This document shows positions 327 to 16,100 of a stretch of DNA of 26,213 nt, piece after piece (within the stretch, counting starts at the first letter, position 1; every line of letters starts with the position of its first letter). The notes beneath the pieces were generated by a model that searched no databases, had not been told where the DNA came from, and saw only the letters and a program-made list of their open reading frames with translations. Source of the stretch: a virus; IMG/VR virus record IMGVR_UViG_3300044638_007832, positions 1 to 26,213 of that record, one strand, 5' to 3'. The translations under genes were made by a program, and so were the position numbers.

Positions 327-956
327 ATGGGTTATTCTTATGACTATTATGTAGAAACTTGTTTAATGTTGCGGCAGAATGGATTTTATCCAAAAAGAAT
401 ATTAGATATTGGCGCAAGCGTCTGTCAAACGGCAGACGTTATGCATGATGTTTGGCGTGTTGCTTATATCGTTCTTTTTGAAGGCAACAAAGAATGTGAG
501 CCTTTGTACAAAATAAAAGATTATGCTTATCATATCAAATTACTTGGTAAAGAAAATGGAATCGCCAAATTCTATAAAACGAAATGGAGTCCCATTTGTT
601 CAGGCAATTCTATATACAAAGAAAACTCGTCAACCTACAATGAAGAAAACTTGATAGTCGAAGAGTTGCCGATTTATAAACTAGATGATTGCATTAATGG
701 CATTTTTGATCTAATAAAAATTGATACTCAAGGTAGTGAATTAGATATTATCAATGGAGGATTGCAGACTTTCTCAAACGCCAAAGTAGTTATCGCAGAA
801 GTGTCTTTAACTAATTACAATGAAGGCGGCTGCACGAAGCAACAGATTGTCGATAAAATGATTAGTCTAAAGTTCGATCTTATATCTATAATAGAATCAG
901 TAGTAAATGAAAACAATGAACTAATCGCTGAAAGTTTATTATTTATCAAACCTTAA
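327..956 (+). CDS. FkbM-family SAM-dependent methyltransferase
   Basis: A 209-residue protein. It carries the class I methyltransferase motif I as ILDIGA (residues 25-30), an acidic residue after strand 2 (E52, in LFEG), and the FkbM hallmark LIKIDTQGSELDIINGG at about 129-145, followed by the strand VVIAEVSL at about 154-161. FkbM enzymes usually O-methylate sugars or small molecules using S-adenosylmethionine. The length fits a stand-alone catalytic domain. There is no signal peptide or membrane segment. The ATG is preceded by an AT-rich tract with no Shine-Dalgarno site. The gene converges on the minus-strand glycosyltransferase and their stop codons overlap (TTAA at 953-956). With two glycosyltransferases and a sulfotransferase nearby, a role in capping or modifying a glycan is likely; the acceptor is unknown. 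Confidence 0.85.
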   Translation: MGYSYDYYVETCLMLRQNGFYPKRILDIGASVCQTADVMHDVWRVAYIVLFEGNKECEPLYKIKDYAYHIKLLGKENGIAKFYKTKWSPICSGNSIYKENSSTYNEENLIVEELPIYKLDDCINGIFDLIKIDTQGSELDIINGGLQTFSNAKVVIAEVSLTNYNEGGCTKQQIVDKMISLKFDLISIIESVVNENNELIAESLLFIKP

Positions 957-3070: not shown

Positions 3071-3895
3071 TTAATAATCGTAACTAAAAGCCTTGTAGAA
3101 CCAAGAAAATCTATTATAAATATTATCGCAGTTCTGCTTGCCTAACACATCGATATAATCATTTGGAACAGGCTTGATAACTTTCTGAATAGTATGGTCG
3201 CCGAAAGGAATATGCATACGATCATCTTCAAAAGTTTTTTGTTCAACATTGTTAAAGTCATGTTGATAAAATGGCAATTCAAGATATTCATAAACTCGCT
3301 GCATTTCACGTTGAGGATTGGCTGCAAAGTTTTCAAACTTAATAAATAAACACTTTTTGCTTAACTTACGCATGATTGTGTCGTATAATACATCCATACT
3401 CACTGCAAGTGGCGGCGCTTGCATTAAAAAGTAATCTATTCTTTTATCTACTGTTGTGTTGCGAAGTTCGTTCCAATTCTGAAGACCAGCATCTATGTTT
3501 TGATGTTGTCGCCACTTTTTTTCCATGCTTGCGACTACTGCTCGCAGATCGCGAACCATAACAATAACCTTTGGTTCTGGATAATACCAGTTTAAAAAGT
3601 CATAAGTCACACTCCAACCTCTGCTCTTATCAATAATATATTTCTTATCGGTGATGGCGTTGAAGTATGCGAACATGCCTTCTTTGCAAAGAGCTTTAAA
3701 CGCTGGTTCAACAACATTTATATCTTGAGCCTTGAATTCTATATTTGTAGAATATATATTTCTGGCATTAAGAAAGATTTCGATCAACCCACTTGTTGGT
3801 GTGGCGTAAAAATCAGGATTTTGGGCTAGTACGTTTTGTAATAATGTCGAACCTGCTCTCGGCAAAGAGCATTGAAAAAATATCTTTTCAACCAT
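3071..3895 (-). CDS. Sulfotransferase (PAPS-dependent)
   Basis: 274 residues from the ATG at 3895. The 5'-phosphosulfate-binding loop is FFQCSLPRAGSTLLQNVL (residues 6-23; the family pattern is LPRSGTTLL). The 3'-phosphate-binding region is VIVMVRDLRAVVASMEKKW, containing the conserved R and S. Further on, IKFENFAANPQREMQRVYEYLELPF matches the family's late segment (Y/F-E-D/N-L ... P ... Y-FL-L). Such enzymes move a sulfuryl group from PAPS to a hydroxyl or amino group of a sugar, protein or lipid. The frame stays open upstream to 3967, but that part would be antisense to the P-loop of the divergent kinase-like gene, and family members start just before this loop. Only 10 bases separate its ATG from that of the APS kinase-like gene, which could make its donor. 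Confidence 0.82.
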   Translation of the reverse strand: MVEKIFFQCSLPRAGSTLLQNVLAQNPDFYATPTSGLIEIFLNARNIYSTNIEFKAQDINVVEPAFKALCKEGMFAYFNAITDKKYIIDKSRGWSVTYDFLNWYYPEPKVIVMVRDLRAVVASMEKKWRQHQNIDAGLQNWNELRNTTVDKRIDYFLMQAPPLAVSMDVLYDTIMRKLSKKCLFIKFENFAANPQREMQRVYEYLELPFYQHDFNNVEQKTFEDDRMHIPFGDHTIQKVIKPVPNDYIDVLGKQNCDNIYNRFSWFYKAFSYDY

Positions 3896-3905
3896 ACCAT
3901 ATATT

Positions 3906-4361
3906 ATGTCAGTTGGTTCGTTTTTAAAGGTGTTAATCATGGGTTTACCGGGATCTGGTAAAACCACATTAGCAGCAGATTTGTTTTATCTTTTAAGTAG
4001 TAATTATAAGTGCCATTGGTTAAATGCAGACAAAGTTCGTGAACAATTCAATGATTGGGATTTCAGCGAAGCTGGTCGTGAGCGCCAAGCCAAAAGAATG
4101 AAAGATCTGGCTGATATGCACGGCCAATATAATGAAATAATTATTTGTGATTTCGTGTGTCCTTTGCAGAAAACTAGAGATCAATTTAATCCTGATTTTA
4201 TAATCTTTATGAATACTATTAATCAATCAAGATATGAGGATACGAATAAAGTATTTGAGCCGCCAAAAAAGTTTGATATCGAAGTCAAAAGCAAGAATAG
4301 TAACTATTATTCTAAAATGATCTACAACGAAATAGTTCATAAAATGAATAAAAAAGTGTAA
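3906..4361 (+). CDS. APS kinase-like P-loop kinase (CysC-like)
   Basis: A 151-residue P-loop protein. After a first strand LKVLIM comes the Walker A loop GLPGSGKTT (residues 13-21). Next is NADKVREQFNDWDFSEAGR, which follows the adenylylsulfate kinase pattern D-G-D-x-x-R ... N-x-D-x-x-F-S-x-x-x-R, then a helix and the strand IIICDFVCPLQKTRDQF, equivalent to the V-S-F-I-S-P-Y-R-x-x-R block. It lacks a DFV-type sulfurylase fusion and is somewhat shorter than bacterial CysC (about 200 residues), with the C-terminal lid reduced. APS kinase phosphorylates adenylylsulfate to PAPS, the sulfotransferase donor, and a sulfotransferase gene lies divergently next to it. The ATG at 3906 is preferred over that at 3939 because the first strand precedes the P-loop. 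An AAA_33-type nucleotide or polynucleotide kinase remains possible. Confidence 0.75.
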   Translation: MSVGSFLKVLIMGLPGSGKTTLAADLFYLLSSNYKCHWLNADKVREQFNDWDFSEAGRERQAKRMKDLADMHGQYNEIIICDFVCPLQKTRDQFNPDFIIFMNTINQSRYEDTNKVFEPPKKFDIEVKSKNSNYYSKMIYNEIVHKMNKKV

Positions 4362-4949: not shown

Positions 4950-6377
4950 TTAATAATTTCTACCACTACCGATTGTGTAGAAGTTGGCGATAGTGTATCC
5001 TAAGCCAGAGTAGAAGGCTGTTCCTTGAGAAGGATCATTAGCAGGAAGAGCATATCCACTTTCTAGAGCCATGTTGACTCCAGTGGCATAACTTCCGCTC
5101 ATAAACAATCCATTAGTAGAATCGTTTGCTCCACCGATTTGAATTGAATAGGTCAAATCAACAGTTTCATTACCTCCGATATCTTGAGTGTGATTTTCAC
5201 TGGTCAAGATAGCTCCACGGAAGTTGTAAGAAATCTTTGGAGTTGGATTTTGTCCGACATCAGCACATTGATTTAAAGTAATTGTGAATTGTTTTGTTGT
5301 TTGATTTCCGCAAAGAAAATCAAATAGATCTTTATTATCAACCATTTCATTTACTAATGCGTTAATAGTAATATCCATATTTAGAGGAACATTAACAACG
5401 CGATTGTAACCGAACAAGGCACCAAGTCTGCTAAGAGTTGTTCTAGCTAGAGGAACTGAGAATCCAAAACTTTGAATGTTAATAGCATTTGTTCCAATAT
5501 TTTCAACATTAACAAAGGTATCTTCTGCTGATGTACTAGCTCCTGGAACAGTAAGAACAATATCTCCTGGTCTCAAAGCTGTTACTGTGGCTGATCCAGT
5601 ACCTGCTGTTGTCCCAAGTTGAGCAGCATTGATCTTATAATACTTATTATATCCAGTAATTCTTGTAGCTGGAGAAGTCGCTGAACCGTTGTAAATAGCT
5701 GGTGAACTACCACTATATCCTACTCCAGCAGTTCCAGCTCTAACATCACTCTTGATATTGAATCCTTCAACAGTTACAGAAGCAGTAGGAACTTCGCCTA
5801 CAGAAGCTGTAAATTGATAATTAGTAACGAAACCATTACCGATGGCGATTACGCTATCAGTTGGAGATGTGATGGATGCTCCAACTACGTCTTCACCTTC
5901 GTCAACAGTTAAAATATAATAATTTTGTCCTTGAGTTTCTGATAAGAAACCAGAAACAGCTCCTGCTCCAGATACCATGGCAGTATCCCAAGATGGAGCG
6001 CCAGCAGTTGATGTAGTAGTTCCACCGAAATTGAATCCCATCAATCTTTCATTCAAGCCATCAGTAATATAATAGCTATAATCAAGAGTTACGGTGGGTG
6101 GTTCGTTAACGATAGTTCCGATACGAGCTAGTTTACCGAATTCATTGACATCTTGACGGTTAATTGTAAAGTTAAAATTACAATTTTGTACGCGATCTAG
6201 CTTATAAAGAAGACCTGTTCCATAGGTTCCAGATAAACCAGCAGCAACATTTCCATCTTGAGGTTGATTTTTAGCGGCAGCAGCGGTTGGTGCGCCAGAA
6301 GCCCAAAGTTGAACTCCTGTTGCGTTTGGAGCGATAAATAAAGCTTTGCTTTGATATATTACACGATTTCTTGACAT
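4950..6377 (-). CDS. Major tail tube-like protein
   Basis: A 475-residue beta-rich, A/G/T/S-rich protein with few cysteines, typical of an abundant virion subunit. The N-terminal part has CNFNFTINRQDVNEFGKLAR followed by PPTVTLDYSYYITDGLNERLMGF, a pattern I associate with phage tail tube subunits (strand, N-R-Q-D-V loop, strand). A second similar unit appears from about residue 300 (INIQSFGFSVPLARTTLSRLGA, then VNVPLNMDITINALVNEM), so two tube-type domains may be fused, with a Ser/Thr-rich Ig-like segment between. The C-terminus ends in a VDLTYSIQIGG strand and a G/S-rich tail. It lies downstream of neck-like genes on the same strand and on the far side of the divergent point from the tape measure gene. 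No Shine-Dalgarno site is visible. A sheath or other tail subunit is the main alternative. Confidence 0.72.
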   Translation of the reverse strand: MSRNRVIYQSKALFIAPNATGVQLWASGAPTAAAAKNQPQDGNVAAGLSGTYGTGLLYKLDRVQNCNFNFTINRQDVNEFGKLARIGTIVNEPPTVTLDYSYYITDGLNERLMGFNFGGTTTSTAGAPSWDTAMVSGAGAVSGFLSETQGQNYYILTVDEGEDVVGASITSPTDSVIAIGNGFVTNYQFTASVGEVPTASVTVEGFNIKSDVRAGTAGVGYSGSSPAIYNGSATSPATRITGYNKYYKINAAQLGTTAGTGSATVTALRPGDIVLTVPGASTSAEDTFVNVENIGTNAINIQSFGFSVPLARTTLSRLGALFGYNRVVNVPLNMDITINALVNEMVDNKDLFDFLCGNQTTKQFTITLNQCADVGQNPTPKISYNFRGAILTSENHTQDIGGNETVDLTYSIQIGGANDSTNGLFMSGSYATGVNMALESGYALPANDPSQGTAFYSGLGYTIANFYTIGSGRNY

Positions 6378-6434
6378 ATGTTTGTATAGTTAAATTGTTA
6401 ATATTTTTTACAGAGTAAAAGTATTTTTGGGAAA

Positions 6435-7298
6435 TTAATTCCTTGGGAAACGAACGTTTCCAATGTTGAATTCCATGAATCCGATGTGCAAATTTGGATT
6501 AAGTTCTTTAAGAACGTTGTCGCGAATCTTAGATATATCAATATCATATATAAAACAAGGATTCGTAAATCCACCATTTGTTATAGCGTTAGCGTAATTA
6601 AAACCAGTAGGATATAATCCTGTTTTTAATTGAGAAAACTCTCCCAATGGATGGGCGGTCATTGGTATAATTTTAAAACAACTATTGAAAGAATCGGCAA
6701 AAGTGCTTAAAACACCGTCTAATTGATATAGATTTTCAGCAAAAACAACACTTTTTATTTTTATATTCGTTTGATCTTGACCGCCAAATGAAAAAGGTTC
6801 GTTAAAATTATGTTCTAAAGATATAAAGCAACAAGGTGTGACGGGATTATATGGAGGAACATATGTTTCTTGAACAGTAAAACGACTGTTTTGTATATAT
6901 TTGCCTTCGATTATTAAATTGTCTTCTGGTTGATCTGTTATATAACTATTAATTTCTTTTACTGTGTAGGTGCCAGTTATATTTAAACCGCTTGACACTC
7001 CGCTATTAAATATTGCTCTGCCATTATTAAAATCGAGCATTAATCCGCTTGTTCCAGTAGGAACAAAGTTTCCATTGACGGTTAAGCCGCTTGGTATAAC
7101 CGCTCCAGTTATATTATGGTCAAAAACCCATTGTTTATATGGACTTCCATATACAACTTTGTTGCCTCCTAGTCTTGGGTCTTCATAATTATAAAATTTA
7201 GTAGTGTAAGTTTTATAAGCATCACTTCTTTTCATCAAAAAGTTATCATACCATAAAAAGAATGAATTTACTATGTCATGCGTAAATTTGGGTTTCAT
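6435..7298 (-). CDS. Putative tail/neck structural protein
   Basis: A 287-residue protein I cannot place in a named family. It starts with an aromatic helix (THDIVNSFFLWYDNFLMKRSDAY). Next is a loop region with Pro/Gly-rich beta strands (about 75-150). A central part containing CCFISLEHNFNEPFSFGGQDQTNIKIKSVVF follows, then a helix (LDGVLSTFADSFNSCFKIIP) and a C-terminal beta segment FMEFNIGNVRFPRN. Its start overlaps the stop of the upstream gene as ATGA (7295-7298), so it is coupled to the neck-like gene, and 57 bases separate its stop from the tube-like gene start. Position between neck and tube genes would fit a tail terminator or tail-to-head joining protein; this rests on gene order only. 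Confidence 0.6.
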   Translation of the reverse strand: MKPKFTHDIVNSFFLWYDNFLMKRSDAYKTYTTKFYNYEDPRLGGNKVVYGSPYKQWVFDHNITGAVIPSGLTVNGNFVPTGTSGLMLDFNNGRAIFNSGVSSGLNITGTYTVKEINSYITDQPEDNLIIEGKYIQNSRFTVQETYVPPYNPVTPCCFISLEHNFNEPFSFGGQDQTNIKIKSVVFAENLYQLDGVLSTFADSFNSCFKIIPMTAHPLGEFSQLKTGLYPTGFNYANAITNGGFTNPCFIYDIDISKIRDNVLKELNPNLHIGFMEFNIGNVRFPRN

Positions 7299-7888
7299 AA
7301 AATTGATTTTTCTAGTTCTTGAATTTTTTTATTATATTTATTGATTAATTTAGATATGTAAGCGGTATTTTTAAATCGAACATCGTTTCTAACTTTGTTT
7401 TGGCTTTGAATGCCAAGTCCAGATCTACTGTTTTTAACTTGTTTTACATAATATCCTAATCCAGAAATACCTTCTTCTATACCTTTTGCCCAGCTTCTTC
7501 CGGTTTCCCAAGGTAAAGGGGTGGCTAAAAATATTTGTTTAGCCGTTGGGATTTCAAATATATAAGTTATTATTGAATTATTTTGTACTATTTTTCTAAA
7601 AGAAGATTGTTTTAACATTTGGCGAATGACTTCAGTTGGTCTGTCGCCATTTTCAAAACCGATGAAAGAATACAAATTAGTAATACCATTCAATGTCCTA
7701 GAAGAATTAGAAGCATCTATTCCTCCTTCTATTTCCACAGTAATAGGATGATTATCAAAATCAGCCAGCATCTCTGTTTTTAATTTATCAAATTGATCTG
7801 AAATAGCTTTGTCGGCATAAGAGGTGTATTCTGGCTGTTTGTTTAATTGTCTTAGTATTGCATTTAAATCTTGTGGATTTAGGTTCAT
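7295..7888 (-). CDS. Putative neck/tail-completion protein (HK97 gp10-like position)
   Basis: 197 residues from the ATG at 7888, which lies one base after the stop of the upstream gene. A TTG at 7933 would add 15 residues overlapping that gene and is less likely. Helical N-terminus (MNLNPQDLNAILRQLNKQ, then SDQFDKLKTEMLADFDNHP), then a strand ITVEIEGG, then a G-F-E-N-G-D-R-P-T-E-V loop. The striking later block PLPWETGRSWAKGIEEGISGLGYYV precedes a basic tail SRSGLGIQSQNKVRNDVRFK and a C-terminal coiled helix. The helix-strand plan and the basic, Gly/Arg-rich arm resemble neck or tail completion proteins, which sit between connector and tail. It forms a tightly packed unit with the genes on either side, all on the minus strand. 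Confidence 0.62.
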   Translation of the reverse strand: MNLNPQDLNAILRQLNKQPEYTSYADKAISDQFDKLKTEMLADFDNHPITVEIEGGIDASNSSRTLNGITNLYSFIGFENGDRPTEVIRQMLKQSSFRKIVQNNSIITYIFEIPTAKQIFLATPLPWETGRSWAKGIEEGISGLGYYVKQVKNSRSGLGIQSQNKVRNDVRFKNTAYISKLINKYNKKIQELEKSIL

Positions 7889-7889
7889 C

Positions 7890-8345
7890 TTATGGATCAG
7901 GCTTGAGATATAAAGTATAATACTGGCTATCAAATAATCCGTGGCCTCTAAAAGATGAATTTAAAACAAATCTTCTACCATCTAAATCAAAACGTCTAGC
8001 ATCTTTAATATATTCATAGTCTTCCGCTCTAATTTTTAGTCTTACGGTTCCTACAACTGCTTCTAGTTTGATTTGGGTATTTACGGCAGTTTCGCTCCAA
8101 TATTGTTTTCTAATATCATCATTATAATAAATTCTTGCTTTAAATTGCTTGTAAACAGGTGTATTTATGATAGAGGTCGTTTGACCGGCAGTATTATATA
8201 ATGGATTAAAGTTTGGATCAGTGATAATGACAACTTCAGACGCTTCTTTAAAGACTGTAATAGTACGAGCGAATGTTTCGTGAACATCCTCTATTATTAA
8301 GTCTAAAGCGGCTTTTTCACTATCTGATAATAAACTTGTAGCCAT
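7890..8345 (-). CDS. Putative head-closure (stopper) protein
   Basis: A 151-residue protein. An N-terminal helix (SEKAALDLIIEDVHETFAR) is followed by a beta-barrel-like series of strands: TITVFKEASEVVII, YKQFKARIYY, TQIKLEAVVGTVRLKIRAEDYEYIKDA, RFDLDGRRFVLNSSFRG, QYYTLYLKP. This helix-then-barrel plan, with a closing strand pair around L-D-G-R-R-F, matches the shape of head-closure proteins of siphophages and myophages, which cap the connector after packaging. It is the first gene of the minus-strand neck and tail unit and starts 34 bases from the divergent chaperone-like gene. The assignment rests on predicted fold and gene order, not on a specific motif. Confidence 0.6.
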   Translation of the reverse strand: MATSLLSDSEKAALDLIIEDVHETFARTITVFKEASEVVIITDPNFNPLYNTAGQTTSIINTPVYKQFKARIYYNDDIRKQYWSETAVNTQIKLEAVVGTVRLKIRAEDYEYIKDARRFDLDGRRFVLNSSFRGHGLFDSQYYTLYLKPDP

Positions 8346-8379
8346 AATAGAAATTTAATTTATTAACTTTATTATAAGT
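8346..8379. promoter_or_regulatory. Divergent intergenic region between two late transcription units
   Basis: Only 34 bases separate the minus-strand neck unit from the plus-strand chaperone/tape-measure unit. The stretch is almost wholly A/T and holds TTATAATAA on the minus strand and its complement TTATTATAA on the plus strand, which could serve as overlapping -10 or late-promoter elements. There is no clear -35 box. No Shine-Dalgarno site is seen for either gene. Both transcripts would have very short leaders if they start here. Confidence 0.4.
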
Positions 8380-9141
8380 ATGTCTAAGAGTATTTACACG
8401 TTTAATATAGAAAAGAAAGCCGAAGTAGAAGAAAAAAGAATAGAAACTTATTTGGAAGATGGCATCGAAAAACAAAGAACCATCACCGAAAAGGTAGAAA
8501 AGGTTATTCCAATAGAGATTTTATTGAAGGAACCAAACAGAAAGCAGGTTCAAGAGGCAGAGCTAGTTTTTTCTGTAGAGATGAGTAAATCTATTAAACT
8601 CGGTATCCTAACAAAGAACATGTTGCTAAATAAGTACAAGGATACTGGAGGTTTGGATGGAGAAAAAGAAACAAAGGCTTTGTCGCAAGCTTATGCAGAT
8701 TATCAGCAAGTACAAATAGACATCGTAAATCTCAGAATTATTCCTGACGCTGAAAAGACGGAAGACCAGGTACAAGAACTTCAACAAAAAGAAAATAGAA
8801 TGCTAGAATTGAGAAAAGAAATTGTTCAGCGTGAAAGCAGTTATTTGACTTTATTCAGTCACACGGCGGATGCGAGGGCGCAGAATAAGTCTATTTTGTG
8901 GTACGTTTTAAATCTATCTTATTATAAAGATACAAGCTTGGGTCATAAAGATTTCGTTCCCATTTTCAAGGGTAACACTTTCGAAGAAAAGGAAGAAGCG
9001 TTGTCAAAGATGGAAGACGAGCAAGACTTTATTTATCAAAACACTTATCTAAAGTTAGCGAGCTTGTTTAGTTATTGGTTCTTCTCTGGAGTCGTTGATA
9101 AGGAAGAGTTCGATAAGATCATAAGAGAACAGAATGGATGA
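8380..9141 (+). CDS. Putative tail assembly chaperone, first of a pair
   Basis: A 253-residue highly charged protein. A short beta N-terminus (SIYTFNIEKKAEVEEKRIETYLEDG) leads to a region typical of capsid- or tail-bound helpers (IPIEILLKEPNRKQVQEAELVFSVEMSKSI). After that comes a long predicted coiled coil rich in E/K/Q (about residues 105-155), then a helical domain with FSHTADARAQNKSILWYVLNLSYYKD and a final helix bundle. I know no exact family. It lies two genes upstream of the tape measure, the usual place of the chaperone pair (lambda G/GT type) that binds the tape measure during tail assembly. Its end overlaps the next gene by 8 bases (ATGGATGA at 9134-9141), which puts the second gene in the +1 frame. 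Confidence 0.6.
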   Translation: MSKSIYTFNIEKKAEVEEKRIETYLEDGIEKQRTITEKVEKVIPIEILLKEPNRKQVQEAELVFSVEMSKSIKLGILTKNMLLNKYKDTGGLDGEKETKALSQAYADYQQVQIDIVNLRIIPDAEKTEDQVQELQQKENRMLELRKEIVQRESSYLTLFSHTADARAQNKSILWYVLNLSYYKDTSLGHKDFVPIFKGNTFEEKEEALSKMEDEQDFIYQNTYLKLASLFSYWFFSGVVDKEEFDKIIREQNG

Positions 9142-10120
9142 TTCTCTATTCTATAAAAATATATTTAAAGATATATGTGCTGGCTTTTCTGTAATCGAAA
9201 CTGTTTTTGGAAAAGCCTATGTGAAGCATATTAATTTTATCGAACAGAGTTATATAGAAGAAAATAGAAAAAAACATCTAGAATACGCCAAGAAAAATGG
9301 GCTTCCTACCGTTCAGGAAGCCCTTGCTAATTTAGAAGAAGAAGGATTTTGGACAAAAGCCGATGAAAGCAAGATTAATCAAGAAGAAGTTTTTGTTAGA
9401 AAATTGCAAGATCAAAAGAAAACTACATATTTAAAATCGCAAATTGACGCTTTCAATAGTCAAATAGAAGAAAGTCTTAAAAAATTAAACAAGTTAAAAA
9501 ATACAAGAAACTCTTATCTTGGTAATACTTGCGAGAATTACGCTGATCAAAAAAATACAGAAGACTTTTTAAAGTTTACTTTGTACACAGATGCATCTTT
9601 AACAGATAAAAAATTCTCTGATGAAGAATTCGATGAGATTCTTGTATCAGATCTTGGCGATATAATTGAACAATATAATGAAGTTAATCGCAAATTCACT
9701 GATTTAAATATACAAAAGACAGTATTGCAGGACTTTTTTAGTTATTATATATCGTTTTCAGAAGATCCTATTCATTTTTTTGGTCTTCCAGTAACTAAAT
9801 TAACGTTTAATCAATTAAGAACGCTAATTTATGCAAGATATTTTAAGAATATCTTTATGCAAAACGACAATATGCCAGAAGAATACCGCCGAGATCCTGA
9901 GAAGATTTTTGATTATGTAAACGCTAATGAAAAAGCTAAAGATATAATTAATAAAGAAAAAGATGGTCAAGCACAATCTATCGTTGGCGCAACAAAAGAA
10001 GATTATAAATATCTTAATATGGACAAAGGTACGACAAAGACTCTTTCTTTGTCAGAAGAAGCGAAGAAAAAAGGTGGCTCGTTGGACATGAATGATTTAA
10101 TGAAAATCATGGGAGTTTAA
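9134..10120 (+). CDS. Putative tail assembly chaperone, second of a pair
   Basis: A 328-residue acidic/basic helical protein without a signal peptide or membrane span. It contains a coiled coil around residues 85-130 (FVRKLQDQKKTTYLKSQIDA, then IEESLKKLNKLKN), a helical core, and FFGLPVTKLTFNQLRTLIYARYFKNIFM near residues 215-242. The C-terminus is flexible (KKKGGSLDMNDLMKIMGV). Length, helical content and position directly before the tape measure gene fit the T-type chaperone partner. No classical -1 slippery heptamer is visible near the end of the first gene, and the second frame has a TAA at 9122-9124, so start-stop coupling is more likely than a programmed frameshift. The gene stops 24 bases before the tape measure start. 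Confidence 0.58.
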   Translation: MDDSLFYKNIFKDICAGFSVIETVFGKAYVKHINFIEQSYIEENRKKHLEYAKKNGLPTVQEALANLEEEGFWTKADESKINQEEVFVRKLQDQKKTTYLKSQIDAFNSQIEESLKKLNKLKNTRNSYLGNTCENYADQKNTEDFLKFTLYTDASLTDKKFSDEEFDEILVSDLGDIIEQYNEVNRKFTDLNIQKTVLQDFFSYYISFSEDPIHFFGLPVTKLTFNQLRTLIYARYFKNIFMQNDNMPEEYRRDPEKIFDYVNANEKAKDIINKEKDGQAQSIVGATKEDYKYLNMDKGTTKTLSLSEEAKKKGGSLDMNDLMKIMGV

Positions 10121-10144
10121 TAGTTTTTAAGTGTAATTAAAAAT

Positions 10145-13100
10145 ATGGCAGTACAAATTAGTGTTCAAGCTAGTCAAACAGCATTAGCGCAGAGTATCGC
10201 TCAAGGCGTTGCCGCATTTAATGCAAGATATGCATCACAGAATCAACTGAATCTGCAAATTAATGCAGGTAGTTTTACTCAGCCATTAGGAAGAATCACT
10301 GGCAACTTAAAAGAATTTGAATCTGCGCTCGCAGCTTCTAATGCTCGCGTACTTGCATTCGGAGCTTCTACAGCGGTAATCGGTGGTGTAGGTAAAGCTT
10401 TCAGAGAAATAGCTAATGTTACTATAGAAGTTGAAAAAAATATCACAGATATTAATCGTGTTTTAGGGTTAAGCACAGATAAATTACAAAAATTTTCTTC
10501 TGATCTTTTTGGAGTTGCTAAACTAACAGCTTCTTCATTTCAAGATGCAGCTAAGGCAAGTTTAGAATTTTCTAGACAAGGTTTAAATGCTGAAGACACT
10601 TTGAAGAAAACTGCCGATGCAATGACTCTTGTTCGTCTTACTGGAGTATCAGCTACTCAAGCCGTAGAAGATTTGACTGCTGCTACAAACGCTTTCAAAG
10701 AAACAGGATTAACTACAAACGATATTTTAAATAAAATTGTAGCAGTAGAACAACAATTTGCAGTTTCAGCAGACGATTTGACTTCAGCCGTTTCTAGAAC
10801 AGGTCAGGCCGCAAAAGAAGCTGGTGTTAATTTCGATCAGTTGAACGCTTTGGTCGCTTCTGCTCAGGAAAAAACTGCCCGTGGTGGTGCGGTTATCGGT
10901 AACGCTCTTAAAACAATTTTTACTCGTTTACAAAGAACTGAAACTTTGGATCAGTTGGAAAATTTTAATATTGCCGTAAGAGATATCGAAGGAAATGTTT
11001 TGCCAGCTATACAAATATTACAAAATTTCGCTGGAGCTTATAAAGATTTAAGTTCAGCTCAAAAAGCCAGCCTTTCTGAACAGGTTGCTGGTGTTTATCA
11101 AGTAAACATATTAAAATCTATAGTAACAGATCTTAATGAAAAACAAGGAGTTTATAATAGAGCTTTAGATTACGGAACGCAAGCTACAAACGAGGCTGAA
11201 CAAGCTAACGCTAAACTAAATTTAACTTTAGCTGCACTAATATCTCAAACAGGAACAAATCTTCAACAGTTAAGTAATAATATTGGTAAAGTAACTTTTG
11301 AACCTGTTTTCAAGAGTTTGGTAAGTCCTTTCAACGACGCAGTAACTTATATTAATGATCTTTTAGAAGGAGAAGGCATTGGTTCTCAATTTGCAAATGG
11401 TTTATTACTTGGAATTAAAAATATATTGAGTGGTCCCGGTTTAGTTGGCGCAGTCGCAGTAATTGGAAAAGTAATTACAAATACTTTTAGTTATGCAAGT
11501 TCAGCGCTGCCAGCTTTATTCGGAATCACTACCGAAACACAAAAGAGAAAAAATATTGAAGAAGCGGTTTTAAAGATTATCCAAAGTCAATCTCAAGTAT
11601 CTTTAGCTTTAAGAGGTCAACAAGGAAATCTTGTAGCTCAATCTCAAACTTTATTTAATTTAGCTCAAGCTCAAACAGCAGAATATCAGCAACAATTAGC
11701 CACAGCAAAACAATTAGCTGCTGCTTTAACTCCTCGCAATATTACAGTAGGGCAAGCTGGATTGCAAGTTGGAAAAATAAAAGCAGGTGGATATATTCCA
11801 AGAGACGTTCAAAATGCTGAAGTAATGGGTGCGGCGATTGGTGGGTACAAAGCTGGAAAAGTTATAAACGCTCCAGTTGGTGGAGTAATGAATACCGCAG
11901 AAAAAATAAAATATATTCCCGGTTTCGCTCAACCTTTTATTAATCCTCCAGCAGGATCAAAAGCGGGTCGTATGCATAGAATAAAATCTATAAATCAAAC
12001 AGGCGTTGATCCATATGCTGCTAACGGATTTTTACCTAATTTTGCAATTCCGCAAGCATATGTAGAGGAAAAATATGATAACGTAGTTAAAGGTAAAACT
12101 CCTAATAAATTAAGAAATTCTTATTCTTTAAATATTGATGGTTTACCATCTGATCGTTTGAACGCTGATTTAAATTTAGATTTTAAAGGCACAAAAATAG
12201 ATGCTGGTTATTCTAATGCAGACGAAATTCCAACTAGAAATAAGTATTTTGATCAAATTTATGGCCAGATAAAAATTGTCAAGTTTCTTGAAAAAGAAAT
12301 GCTTACTAATGCTGTAGATTCTATTTGGGAAAAAGTTACATCTGGTAAAAATGATTATTCGCCTGACGATTCAATTTTAAAACTTTTATTATCTCCTGAT
12401 TTAACTAAACAAGCATTCAATCGTGCTTTATTAAAAAATAATGTTTCTCTTCAAGATTTAAGAGACAAATATAATCGTTCTATTGGTGGACAACCTTTGC
12501 AAAATAAAACATTTAAAACTGTTAAAACCAAAAGGGAATTAAAAACACCAAAGGATTTTCAAGAATCTTTGTCTGGTGATAAAAATAATTTTATTGGTTC
12601 ATTTTATGAAGGTATTCTTTTAAATAATTTAAAAGGTTATGTTTTAGCGGATAATGAATATAGCGCTGTTGATTTAGTCGGCGATAAATACAATTTGTCA
12701 TTACCACCATTGGAAGCTAAAGGTGGGCAAGCTGAACTTGATCAATTAATAAGAAAAGGAATTCGTAGCAGTTCTTTAAAGGCAGACGATAAAACAGGTC
12801 CAGAAAATTTTGGAAGATTAGTAGTGGTTCAGCCTTATGGTTCTGGTTTGGCTTATAATTCTGGTTTTATACCTAACTTTTCTCCAATAATAGATGATAA
12901 TTATTTTGATAAACACGCATTTCCCGGTGGAACTGCGATTGGCCCAATTCCAGATAAAGCTATACAAAATATTTTAGATAGACAAAGAAAACGTCAAATG
13001 ACGTATTTGGATTTTGATAGAACGTTAGTCAGAACAATGGGTGACATAGCTTACGCTAAAGTCGCACCAGAACAGAAAAAAGGTGTTTTGCAAAAAATGT

Positions 13101-16100
13101 TTTTGGATAAAGAAGCTAGATTGAAAGATGTTAAAGGATCTAAACTTACTCAGTTTGGTGAATTATTACGTCAAAAAATACAACAAAAAATAATTGATCC
13201 AAGTTTACTTGGATTAATGACGGCTTCTGATGAAACTCCAGGTATGCCAGAATATATATCTAGCATTTGGGGCATACAAAAAAGAAATCAAGTTTACTCA
13301 GCAAAACCCGGTACAAAAGAAGCCAGATTAGCAAGTTTAGGTGTTTCAGCAAATGGATTTATTCCAAATTTTGCAACAGGTTTATCTCCAAAAGTCACAA
13401 GACTTCCTTGGTTAAAATCTTTTGCTAATAAAGAATGGTTTAATAGATTTCCTTGGTTTAATGATATTGATTTAAAAAATACAAGTCAAAATATGGATTA
13501 CAATCCATATACTGGTGAAAGAAAATTGATTGCTGGTTCTGAAATGTTCAGAGAGTTAAATTTCTTAACTCATGGAAATAATAAAAATATTACAACTGGA
13601 AATTCTCCATTGTTTAGTTATTTATACGAAGAATACGTTCGTGATATTTTAAATGAGGTTACTAAAAATAAATCTATTAAAGATGCTGAAGAAGCTGGTT
13701 TTCCAATGCGAGATAAATATGGAAATCCTACAAAATTTGATCCTTTCAAAGCAGCAAATACTGCTCCAATGGATGCTCTTATTAGAAATAGAGCAGGAAG
13801 AATTGGCGGCATTGAAATAAAAGGTGGAACAGAAGAAAACTGGAAAACAAAAGATATACTTAAAAAAGAACAAGATTTTGAAACTCAAAATCCCGGTTCT
13901 ACTTTGGGTAGACGTACTCGCGTTTATTCAAACATGTATAAAGGAACTGATTTTCTTACTAAAGGATTATTAAAGAGACTCGGAGTTGACAAAGCTAAAA
14001 CAATTACTAATAAATTAATAAGCTTTTATGCTGATAAAATCGCAGGTCATGAATCAGAAATAGAAAGTAATTGGAGAAATAATAAAGGATTGAGTGGAGG
14101 TTTTATTCCTAACTTTAGTATGGGTGACAGAATGCGTGAAAATATGATGCAAAATAATTTACGTCCAATTGTTCATGATTTAAAAACCGGAAAAGAAGCT
14201 TATGCTCAACCAGGAATAAAAGGAAAAGAATATTTATATCACAAAGACGCATACAATGCAGAACTAAAAACTGCTGGCGCAGATATTAATGATTATGATT
14301 TTGCTGAACTTCCTAATTTAGTTAGAGGGTTTATATATCCTAATGGAACAATAACGTGGGATTATTCTGAGAAACAACAAGAAGCTTTACAAGATCCAAA
14401 TGTAAAAGCAAAAATTTTAGCTAAACTTAATGCTGTACAAACTAGAATTCCGAAACCAATTCCAACGAAAGCTAAACGCATTTCACCTTTGGCAGCGTTT
14501 AGAAATGAAGGTTTTATTCCTAATTTTGCTGATCCAAAAATTAAAATAAACTCTGGCAAAGACGCAGTTGAATCTTTTTATAGTAAAAATTCAGAAGTAA
14601 AAGGTAAAAAATTAACAGGTGGCGTTATAGCTTTTCCTATTCCTCAAACTACAGATTTATATTCTGTTGGATCTTCTGCTGTAAACATTCAAGGTTCTGG
14701 GTTTGGAATTCCTTTATATGATGCGGTATTGGCCGAAATATCAAAAAGAGGAGGTTGGTTAACATCCGATAGATTAACAGTTAGCGACAAGGCTAAAAGA
14801 ATTTGGGATGGTTATAGAAAATTAAGAACAGGCGATGTAAACAGTAAAAAATTGCCAATGAAAAATTGGTTTTTAGATCCAGCATTCAATGGAGGCAGCT
14901 ACGAGTTTCCAATGAATCCACAAGATTTATCAAAATATAAATCTACATGGCCTTCTGAAAATGATCCTATTTGGTCTCTACAATACGCTTATCAATTTAA
15001 AAAATCTAAATTAGATGAGCTTGTTAAAAATAATATGGCGTCTGGTTTCATTCCTAATTTCGCTTATCAACAAGCAGTAATGAGCTTGGAAGAAAGCATG
15101 AGCGGAAATAAAGCTATTCTTGATAAAACTACTGGACCTTTTCCATTCGTTAGAAATAGCAGCCAACCAAATTTTGCTTCAGCGGTAGCAGATCATGGTG
15201 GAGTTAAAAATGCATTGAGTGATTCAATGGCTGGACAAAAAGCTGCTGGATTGATGGCTAATGGTAATATACCTAATTTTGCTGCGCCTAATCCTATAAC
15301 TTTAACAGGAAAAGGATATGCTGGAAATGCTAAAGTTGAACAAGCAATAAATAATTATTTAAAATCTATTGATATTTTAACTATTTCGAATGGCGACATT
15401 AGAAAAGCTTTAGACGGTTTATATAAAACATTAGGATTAACTGGTCAAGAATTTGAAAAATTAAAAAAAGAAGTGGTTGCACATGCGAAAGCAGAAAAAA
15501 AAGCAGCACAAGCTTTTATTGGGCCAATGCCTCAACAAAATACCGCAACAACGGCAGCGGCGGCAGTTCCTCTTGGGCCACCTAATCCAACAGCATTACA
15601 GTCTGCTAGATTAAGAGCATCAAGTTTTGGTAGAAAAGCTAACACATTTGCTCAAGGGATTGGTAATAATTTAGCTTTCACTTTAGGCGCTCCGTTAATT
15701 GCTGGGCAACTTGAAAGCGCCATTACAAGGGGTCGTGACAGATCTGAAATGTCTGTTGGAGAAAGATTTGCGGGTTCTGCTATAAGTTCTGGATTAACAA
15801 ACATAAGTACTGGAGCTTCTTTAGGAACAGCTTTAGCGCCTATTCTTGGACCATTAGCTCCTTTTGGTCCAGCTATTGGTGCAGCAACTGGAGCGATTGT
15901 AGGATTGGGAACAGCAGCATTCGGAGCTTCTGATAATCTTGAAGATTTACAAAAGAAAGCTGAAAATTATAGAAATCAAACTCAAGAAGCAATTCAATCT
16001 GGAAAAGGTATCATAGATACAGTAAAAGCTTTAGGAAATTTAGATCCTAATTCTTTAGAGGCGTTCGATGCAAATCAAAAATTAGAAGAATATTTCGTTA

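Follow-up and report, generated by a model that had tools for sequence, protein, structure and literature searches.

Among described systems, the nearest kinds to the arrangement considered here, in which a row of exchangeable domains bounded by one short peptide motif is built into a phage tape measure protein (TMP), are the polyvalent proteins and the TMP-related effectors of contractile injection systems (CIS). The locus lies in a 26,213-nucleotide stretch of viral DNA (IMG/VR record IMGVR_UViG_3300044638_007832, positions 1 to 26,213), the whole of which is hereafter called the window, and the segments between its motif copies are termed cassettes. Polyvalent proteins, as presented in the main text of Iyer et al. 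2017 (PMC5512222), similarly combine several unrelated enzyme domains in one polypeptide, vary in composition, and are predicted to be co-injected with DNA. Those proteins are head-packaged (MuF, portal) or conjugative, whereas here the carrier is the TMP and a single motif delimits the cassettes; the term “tape measure” is absent from that main text (PMC5512222). Effectors of CIS, as described for the Sle1 type (PMC13277306) and for S. davawensis (PMC11126660), join a TMP-like part to variable functional domains within a tail-like particle. They belong to actinobacterial CIS and vary in a C-terminal region, whereas in the present case the carrier is a phage TMP whose array is internal, flanked on either side by backbone and divided by a seam motif. 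A further likeness is offered by the type VI secretion system effector Tde1, in which TMP-like membrane segments (a glycine zipper) are reported to be tied to DNase translocation, although Tde1 is described as a single secretion-system effector with no phage tail (PMC10240207).

Enzyme domains within phage TMPs have also been described for muralytic examples of the Basilisk type. Two other TMPs, that of TM4 and pb2 of T5, are likewise said to carry a muralytic domain. Such domains digest peptidoglycan, whereas none of the Pfam families matched by the cassettes studied here is muralytic. Polymorphic toxins pair a conserved carrier with exchangeable toxin ends; here, by contrast, the exchange is internal, can involve several slots, and takes place within a virion protein. 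In the open literature searched, with closed papers and outside preprints beyond its scope, no relevant paper was found for “GFIPNFA” or “IPNFA”, and among the matches listed for TMPs combined with domain shuffling, cargo, effectors or polymorphic toxins, none had this arrangement as judged by title and the start of the abstract. A survey of phage protein mosaicism has reported that TMPs are often mosaic by sequence, with no genuine recent case confirmed in what it describes (PMC10684548).

The TMP of the window is encoded by a continuous open reading frame (ORF) of 3128 amino acids (aa) on the plus strand (coordinates are collected in Table 1), and it is identified as a TMP by its N-terminal profile matches, to the Pfam PhageMin_Tail domain and to PHROGs tape measure families (best E=2.2e-41). 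An earlier note on this DNA had described a row of five enzyme-like domains in this protein, separated by a heptapeptide. The row itself stands, with seven copies of G[FN][IL]PNF[AS] across residues 628–1713 (starting at 628, 907, 1071, 1319, 1456, 1634 and 1707) that enclose five long segments, D1 to D5, and a 66-aa spacer, D6; the label “enzyme-like” holds as far as residue patterns go, and D4 carries none. When the TMP was shuffled 2000 times, no copy arose. The seven copies are also seven different 21-mers, even where the peptide is identical. No Pfam or PHROGs family named D1 to D5, the few rows listed being at chance level (best E 0.038). A hydropathy scan found weakly hydrophobic, glycine-rich segments at residues 420–440, 1904–1922 and 2920–2938, the second of which sits after the array, on its C-terminal side.

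Comparison with related loci (given L numbers) indicates that the chain is modular, with whole domains exchanged between phages at the motif while motifs and backbone are kept. The window and L009 share 95.4% DNA similarity over 5795–14116, ending inside motif 4; a short stretch of similarity at 14481–14528 reaches motif 5, and similarity picks up again at 15044, where motif 6 begins. With L010, similarity stops at 12045 (motif 1 ends at 12046) and returns at 12859–13374 and 14098–15282, the D2 block standing at 87% against 68% upstream at the DNA level. Breaks with L059 fall at 12045, 13352, 14116 and 15043, and those with L109 at 12046, 14508 and 15284, while the block shared with L090 ends at 15282, inside motif 7, its left end being the end of the L090 contig. 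For L009, L010, L059 and L109, every in-array blastn block end is within 4 nucleotides (nt) of motif codons, with the sole exception of one at 29 nt (L009, 14481). At the protein level, L010 matches the window in D2 (85%), D4 (62%) and D5 (84%), and its slots 1 and 3 hold other domains. Homologues of D5 have the same left neighbour in L010 and different left neighbours in L109 and L140; in L090 the left side is lost at the contig end.

A broader sample was formed by viral loci retrieved with exact DNA patterns for GFIPNFA, GYIPNFA and GFVPNFA (at least 120 stretches each), together with relatives of the window. These loci are a sample and no census, and some share one contig; the choice of query skews the residue frequencies at the motif and leaves the synonymous codons unaffected. 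The motif lies in an ORF of at least 300 aa in 280 of the 308 viral loci, only in shorter ORFs in 12, and in no ORF of at least 60 aa in 16. The latter two groups were dropped before counting, as were 36 near-duplicates of the 280 ORFs, leaving 244 non-redundant ORFs; window slices, domain-query loci except L140, and genome-contig loci were also excluded from counts. Two or more motif copies occur in 230 of the 280 ORFs, and the N-terminal region of the window TMP recurs in 123 of the 129 non-redundant ORFs whose 5′ end is intact and whose first motif falls at residue 400 or beyond. Either that profile or the following one (residues 1714–2000) is matched by 200 of the 244, the other 44 being mostly truncated by locus ends or carriers of chance motifs. 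Among 145 ORFs with an intact 5′ end, the first motif falls at residue 525–575 in 36, at 615–665 in 75 and elsewhere in 34. In 41 “complete” non-redundant ORFs, selected for two or more motifs with the first at 500–700, the stretch ahead of the array measures 609 aa (s.d. 40, a small spread that is partly set by this selection), the array 452 aa (s.d. 221, range 164–1079) and the stretch that follows 1339 aa (s.d. 189). A single long cassette is present in 27 of these 41 arrays; the window (as L006) holds five, the maximum, tied with L010, and a five-cassette row is unusual.

Across the 244 non-redundant ORFs, 73.5% of 3436 in-array match ends are no more than 10 nt from a motif in both sequences, compared with 10.9% (one sequence) and 1.3% (both) for random positions. 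Because many in-array matches cover conserved spacers, a stricter count was limited to matches passing through long cassettes at a distance from ORF ends, and here 210 of 409 ends (51.3%) were at a motif, against at most 2.0% when motif positions were shifted by 90 or 150 nt. The proportion was 52.4% of 420 long-cassette ends without the ORF-end filter and 37% with a single end from each of 78 query ORFs; match ends of related sequences are not independent of one another. The 293 long segments group into 132 families, of which 100 are singletons with one member only, and 63 clean swap pairs were found in 14 families and 38 ORFs.

Synonymous divergence (dS) is often lower in shared cassettes than in their backbones. 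For D5 it is 0.35 (L010), 0.33 (L090), 0.48 (L109) and 0.40 (L140), compared with 1.05, 1.21 and 1.04 for the N-terminal backbones of L010, L109 and L140, and therefore D5 moved more recently than the backbones parted. For D6, which adjoins D5, dS is 1.55, 0.97, 1.36 and 0.58 with L010, L090, L109 and L140, respectively. The ratio of nonsynonymous to synonymous divergence (dN/dS) for D1 to D5 ranges from 0.02 to 0.51 in the pairs measured, which suggests constraint, weakest for D4. Seams can also be lost, as in L059, which has GFIPHFA after its D3, and in family F24, which aligns as F2 and then F14.

The motif itself is kept as a peptide while its DNA is diverse. Its 684 copies carry 477 different 21-mers (a variety that is partly peptide-level), and exact GFIPNFA copies differ on average by 3.1 of 21 bases between ORFs and by 2.5 within an ORF. 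The extended form is [AS]xG[FY][IV]PN[FY][AS], partly set by the query. Spacing between copies is irregular (43–1242 aa), too much so for a correspondence with the spacing of tube rings, an idea that was dropped. In the model of a cassette of family F0, with a mean predicted local distance difference test score (pLDDT) of 83.7, the first 30 and last 13 residues, which hold both motifs, score about 50–61 and the domain between them 71–97; the motif is read as a linker outside the folds. Several proposals of the earlier note are sustained by these results: a motif search has found the heptapeptide recurring in the TMPs of uncultured phages; its argument for selection on the peptide, drawn from differing synonymous codons, agrees with the codon diversity across copies; and domain swapping between motifs is borne out by the block ends of relatives, the differing neighbours and the swap pairs. 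Neither a lack of swapping nor one continuous fold was seen, and the F0 model places the motifs in predicted flexible ends outside a compact domain.

Outside this sample, tblastn against cultured phages gave no match for D1, D2, D3 or D5 (E up to 1) or for D6 (E up to 0.1), and the N-terminal 640 aa of the TMP had only distant relatives there, the top-ranked being Bacillus phage Stahl (28% over 64%). In bacterial genome contigs, 27 stretches carry exact AxGFIPNFA, of which only L149 and L161 are multi-motif ORFs; seven belong to one protein of Alicyclobacillus and relatives, and in the remainder no ORF of at least 60 aa holds more than one motif. L161 lies on a contig of a Flavobacteriales metagenome-assembled genome, and a Bacteroidota host for phages with such a TMP is a guess drawn from it. 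Motif ORFs other than TMPs (named by eye as terminase-like, DNA polymerase-like and an 1832-aa protein) were taken as chance. As an observation in its own right, the protein of about 1820–1832 aa in L307:22-5517, L279:3714-9170 and L298:1-4320 (truncated in L298) contains a single GFVPNFA, some 200 residues short of the end, and has no match to the TMP N-terminal profile, and in L307 it has no Pfam match. A different short spacer type adjoins the motif in L103:969-6362, L257:3-3833 and L096:1-3789, with the pattern EAAG..RA..REK..MP.GA.LA(V/I)AN..EAIIPM; L103 has a PhageMin_Tail match.

As to what the cassettes encode, D1 carries an E...D...ExK pattern (LEAK form) resembling that of PD-(D/E)XK nucleases, a signature weakly tested in its family, F21, which has only two members. 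The same E...D...ExK pattern occurs in D3, and throughout its family, F2, residues E85, D133, [ED]147 and K149 are conserved in 13 of 13 aligned sequences, ten of which are at 26–31% identity to the window; D3 and its relatives thus show the residue conservation of a putative PD-(D/E)XK nuclease. The commonest family, F0 (75 of the 293 long segments), has a comparable signature in the 60 of its 75 members that were aligned (E in 58, D in 60, D/E in 59 and K in 59). A Foldseek comparison of the F0 model with the PDB gave no match at E<=0.001, and on re-examination of the list (best Z 3.8) no listed PD-(D/E)XK nuclease chain stood out; the fold search neither supports nor excludes the nuclease reading. 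Because the model matched no solved fold, F0 may be divergent or of a different fold. Seen separately, F0 (L099:3601-4329 and 59 aligned relatives), with its G-E-D-[DE]xK-K signature, is possibly a new fold.

Searches against PDB sequences were equally sparing, the F0 profile finding only lectins (E 0.14–0.23, read as chance), the F2 profile one carboxylesterase (E=1.5, not credible), D2 nothing credible and D5 nothing. D2 shows a DxDRT HAD-like pattern only, with no Pfam HAD match, and the Pfam GNAT profile was matched by neither D5 of the window nor its four homologues, their GNAT-like GSGFG pattern notwithstanding. An hhalign comparison of D5 with GNAT cassettes aligned a shared tail segment and not the GNAT part, and was not used as support. 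In relatives, matches above the Pfam cut-off were found for SNase (L109, E=1.9e-9), for GNAT (L070, 4.1e-7; L055, 1.3e-4) and for a cytidyltransferase-related region (L057, 6.1e-8); GNAT in L073 and HATPase in L033 (E=3.7e-5) were weak and below the curated cut-offs. Over 119 cassettes and with E up to 0.01, Pfam matched 20 families, none of them muralytic and most of them in one member, and most cassettes were unmatched. PADLOC and NCBIfam models on the same 119 gave a few weak matches (best E 0.00017 and 8.2e-5, the latter to a nuclease model), which were not used.

Two enzyme types may share one polypeptide in some relatives, with an SNase match and a D5 homologue in L109, and an F0-like signature and the sub-cutoff GNAT match in L073; in the window, multi-enzyme content is read from patterns, without profile or fold confirmation. 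A model of the window array (1176 aa, 43-row alignment) had a pLDDT too low for fold claims and was not used for them, D6 being its best-predicted part (block pLDDT 76–91). The nuclease, phosphatase and acetyltransferase units once proposed for the window find partial backing: cassettes of nuclease and acetyltransferase type do occur in relatives, and the phosphatase (D2) comes down to a short pattern.

The reading regarded as moderately probable is that the array consists of injected effectors, arranged as cassettes within the TMP of a phage and joined at a conserved seam motif. In the sequences, the TMP backbone is broken at an almost constant site by one to five exchangeable domains that the extended motif flanks, and entire domains have moved between phages at the motif. 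The motif would serve as a flexible linker outside the folded domains and as a tolerant seam for in-frame exchange. TMP and cassettes would sit in the tail tube and, in keeping with reported TMP behaviour, exit ahead of the DNA. The cassettes may then be presented or released in the periplasm or cytoplasm, and nucleases, acetyltransferases and other enzymes could act on the host, or on the DNA of rivals, as infection begins; an arms race would account for the large number of singleton cassettes. The TMP of phage 80alpha is described as present in three copies, with N-termini at the neck and C-termini at the baseplate, and as probably ejected along with the DNA (PMC11661146), and the TMP of lambda is reported to help the genome cross the inner membrane (PMC13190303). 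If the C-terminus exits first, the array would follow the segment at residues 1904–1922 across. By analogy with reported TMP ejection, the likeliest use would be to deliver nucleases and modifying enzymes as the genome enters. A bolder version, entertained tentatively, is a programmable injector: the ruler protein would be a standardised rack into which any GF[IV]PNFA-flanked effector fits, a shared pool of first-strike enzymes would be delivered before or with the genome, and the motif would be both a recombination seam and a signal for release or anchoring.

Several points weigh against the reading of the cassettes as exchangeable injected effectors. In the strict test about half of the match ends lie off recognised motifs, and most do when one end is taken per ORF, a shortfall explained in part by degenerate motifs, such as the GFIPHFA of L059, that were left out of the counts. 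The dN/dS values are not low for D4 (0.51, L010), D5 (0.45, L109) and D1 (0.34, L009). The commonest family, F0, is nuclease-like by signature, and its confident model has no PDB match; the cassettes of the window have no Pfam match, and the mean pLDDT of the array model is 43.8. Finally, the lumen of a tail tube is about 4 nm wide. With the TMP presumably present in three copies, folded domains of 15–30 kDa would have little room there, and they may therefore be unfolded or located elsewhere.

That the motif is a putative processing site, at which a phage or host protease would cut GF[IV]PNFA and free the cassettes before or during injection, extends the effector reading and is not its opposite. 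A short, well-kept peptide predicted by the F0 model to lie outside the folded domain would suit such a site, and the 80alpha TMP is reported as often fragmented in sodium dodecyl sulfate polyacrylamide gel electrophoresis (PMC11661146); the Pfam rows, however, listed no protease family for the window cassettes, and cleavage is judged unlikely. Less likely still are structural or assembly modules, providing rigidity, chaperone docking or tube contacts and never acting as host enzymes, with the motif as a docking peptide for the tube or an assembly chaperone. Such modules would agree with the placement of everything within a tail protein and with a motif that is kept and repeated. Directly upstream of the TMP, two overlapping ORFs (8380–9141 and 9134–10120) occupy the usual position of tail assembly chaperones, and no PHROGs profile matched them. 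Catalytic-type signatures kept at low identity, SNase and GNAT matches, and singletons in 100 of 132 families nevertheless mean that the cassettes do not look structural, and the irregular motif spacing is unlike docking to tube rings.

Quite improbable is the idea that the nuclease cassettes are selfish, in-frame homing elements spreading through TMP genes. It draws on the nuclease-type signature of the commonest family and on a known precedent in ICP1, where homing nuclease genes are described as interrupting TMP genes (PMC10448857). However, no Rfam intron family was found in the window at gathering scores and the frame is continuous, GNAT cassettes use the same seams, and window relatives show cassettes replacing one another; with 477 different 21-mers at the motif, there is no fixed DNA target. 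A metagenome assembly artefact is hardly credible, for although all of the material is metagenomic and the window domains searched had no cultured-phage match, the 1222-aa region around the array is 100% identical at the protein level in three other contigs (L006–L008), whose metagenomes carry different numbers, and junctions lie at motifs, in frame, across many contigs.

Table 1. Features of the tape measure gene and its array, in window coordinates.
Feature	Position	Strand	Evidence
Tape measure protein ORF, 3128 aa	10145..19531	+	ORF list, Pfam, PHROGs
PhageMin_Tail domain, residues 127-316	10523..11092	+	Pfam E=1.7e-24
Motif copy 1, GFLPNFA, residues 628-634, array left edge	12026..12046	+	
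Cassette D1, 272 aa, family F21, E...D...LEAK pattern (PD-(D/E)XK-like)	12047..12862	+	
Motif copy 2, GFIPNFS	12863..12883	+	
Cassette D2, 157 aa, family F12, HAD-like TYLDFDRTLVRT pattern (putative)	12884..13354	+	
Motif copy 3, GFIPNFA	13355..13375	+	
Cassette D3, 241 aa, family F2, E-D-[DE]xK signature	13376..14098	+	
Motif copy 4, GFIPNFS; L009 and L059 DNA similarity blocks end here	14099..14119	+	
Cassette D4, 130 aa, family F20, without recognised signature	14120..14509	+	
Motif copy 5, GFIPNFA	14510..14530	+	
Cassette D5, 171 aa, family F6, GNAT-like GSGFGxxLYDAxL pattern, no Pfam GNAT match	14531..15043	+	
Motif copy 6, GFIPNFA	15044..15064	+	
D6, conserved 66-aa spacer module, array right edge	15065..15262	+	
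Motif copy 7, GNIPNFA, array right edge	15263..15283	+	
Weakly hydrophobic glycine-rich segment, residues 1904-1922, possibly membrane-inserting	15854..15910	+	hydropathy scan

Elsewhere in the window, a sulfotransferase-family protein (3071–3967, minus strand, Pfam E=3.2e-18) overlaps head-to-head with an adenylylsulfate-kinase-like protein (3906–4361, plus strand, Pfam E=6.2e-13), and the two genes are a possible phage sulfation pair. An FkbM-type methyltransferase (327–956, plus strand, Pfam E=1.3e-10) is adjoined by two minus-strand ORFs (953–2679) that have no Pfam match.

For the biology of tailed phages, motif-bounded TMP arrays supply sharply delimited cases of recent TMP mosaicism. 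Should the cassettes prove to be effectors, a single heptapeptide would lead to a large reservoir of enzymes active in the first minutes of infection. A natural seam motif would mark where a tail-tube carrier tolerates foreign domains, and it would also tell why a ruler protein accepts arrays of 164 to 1079 aa, the range among the 41 complete ORFs.

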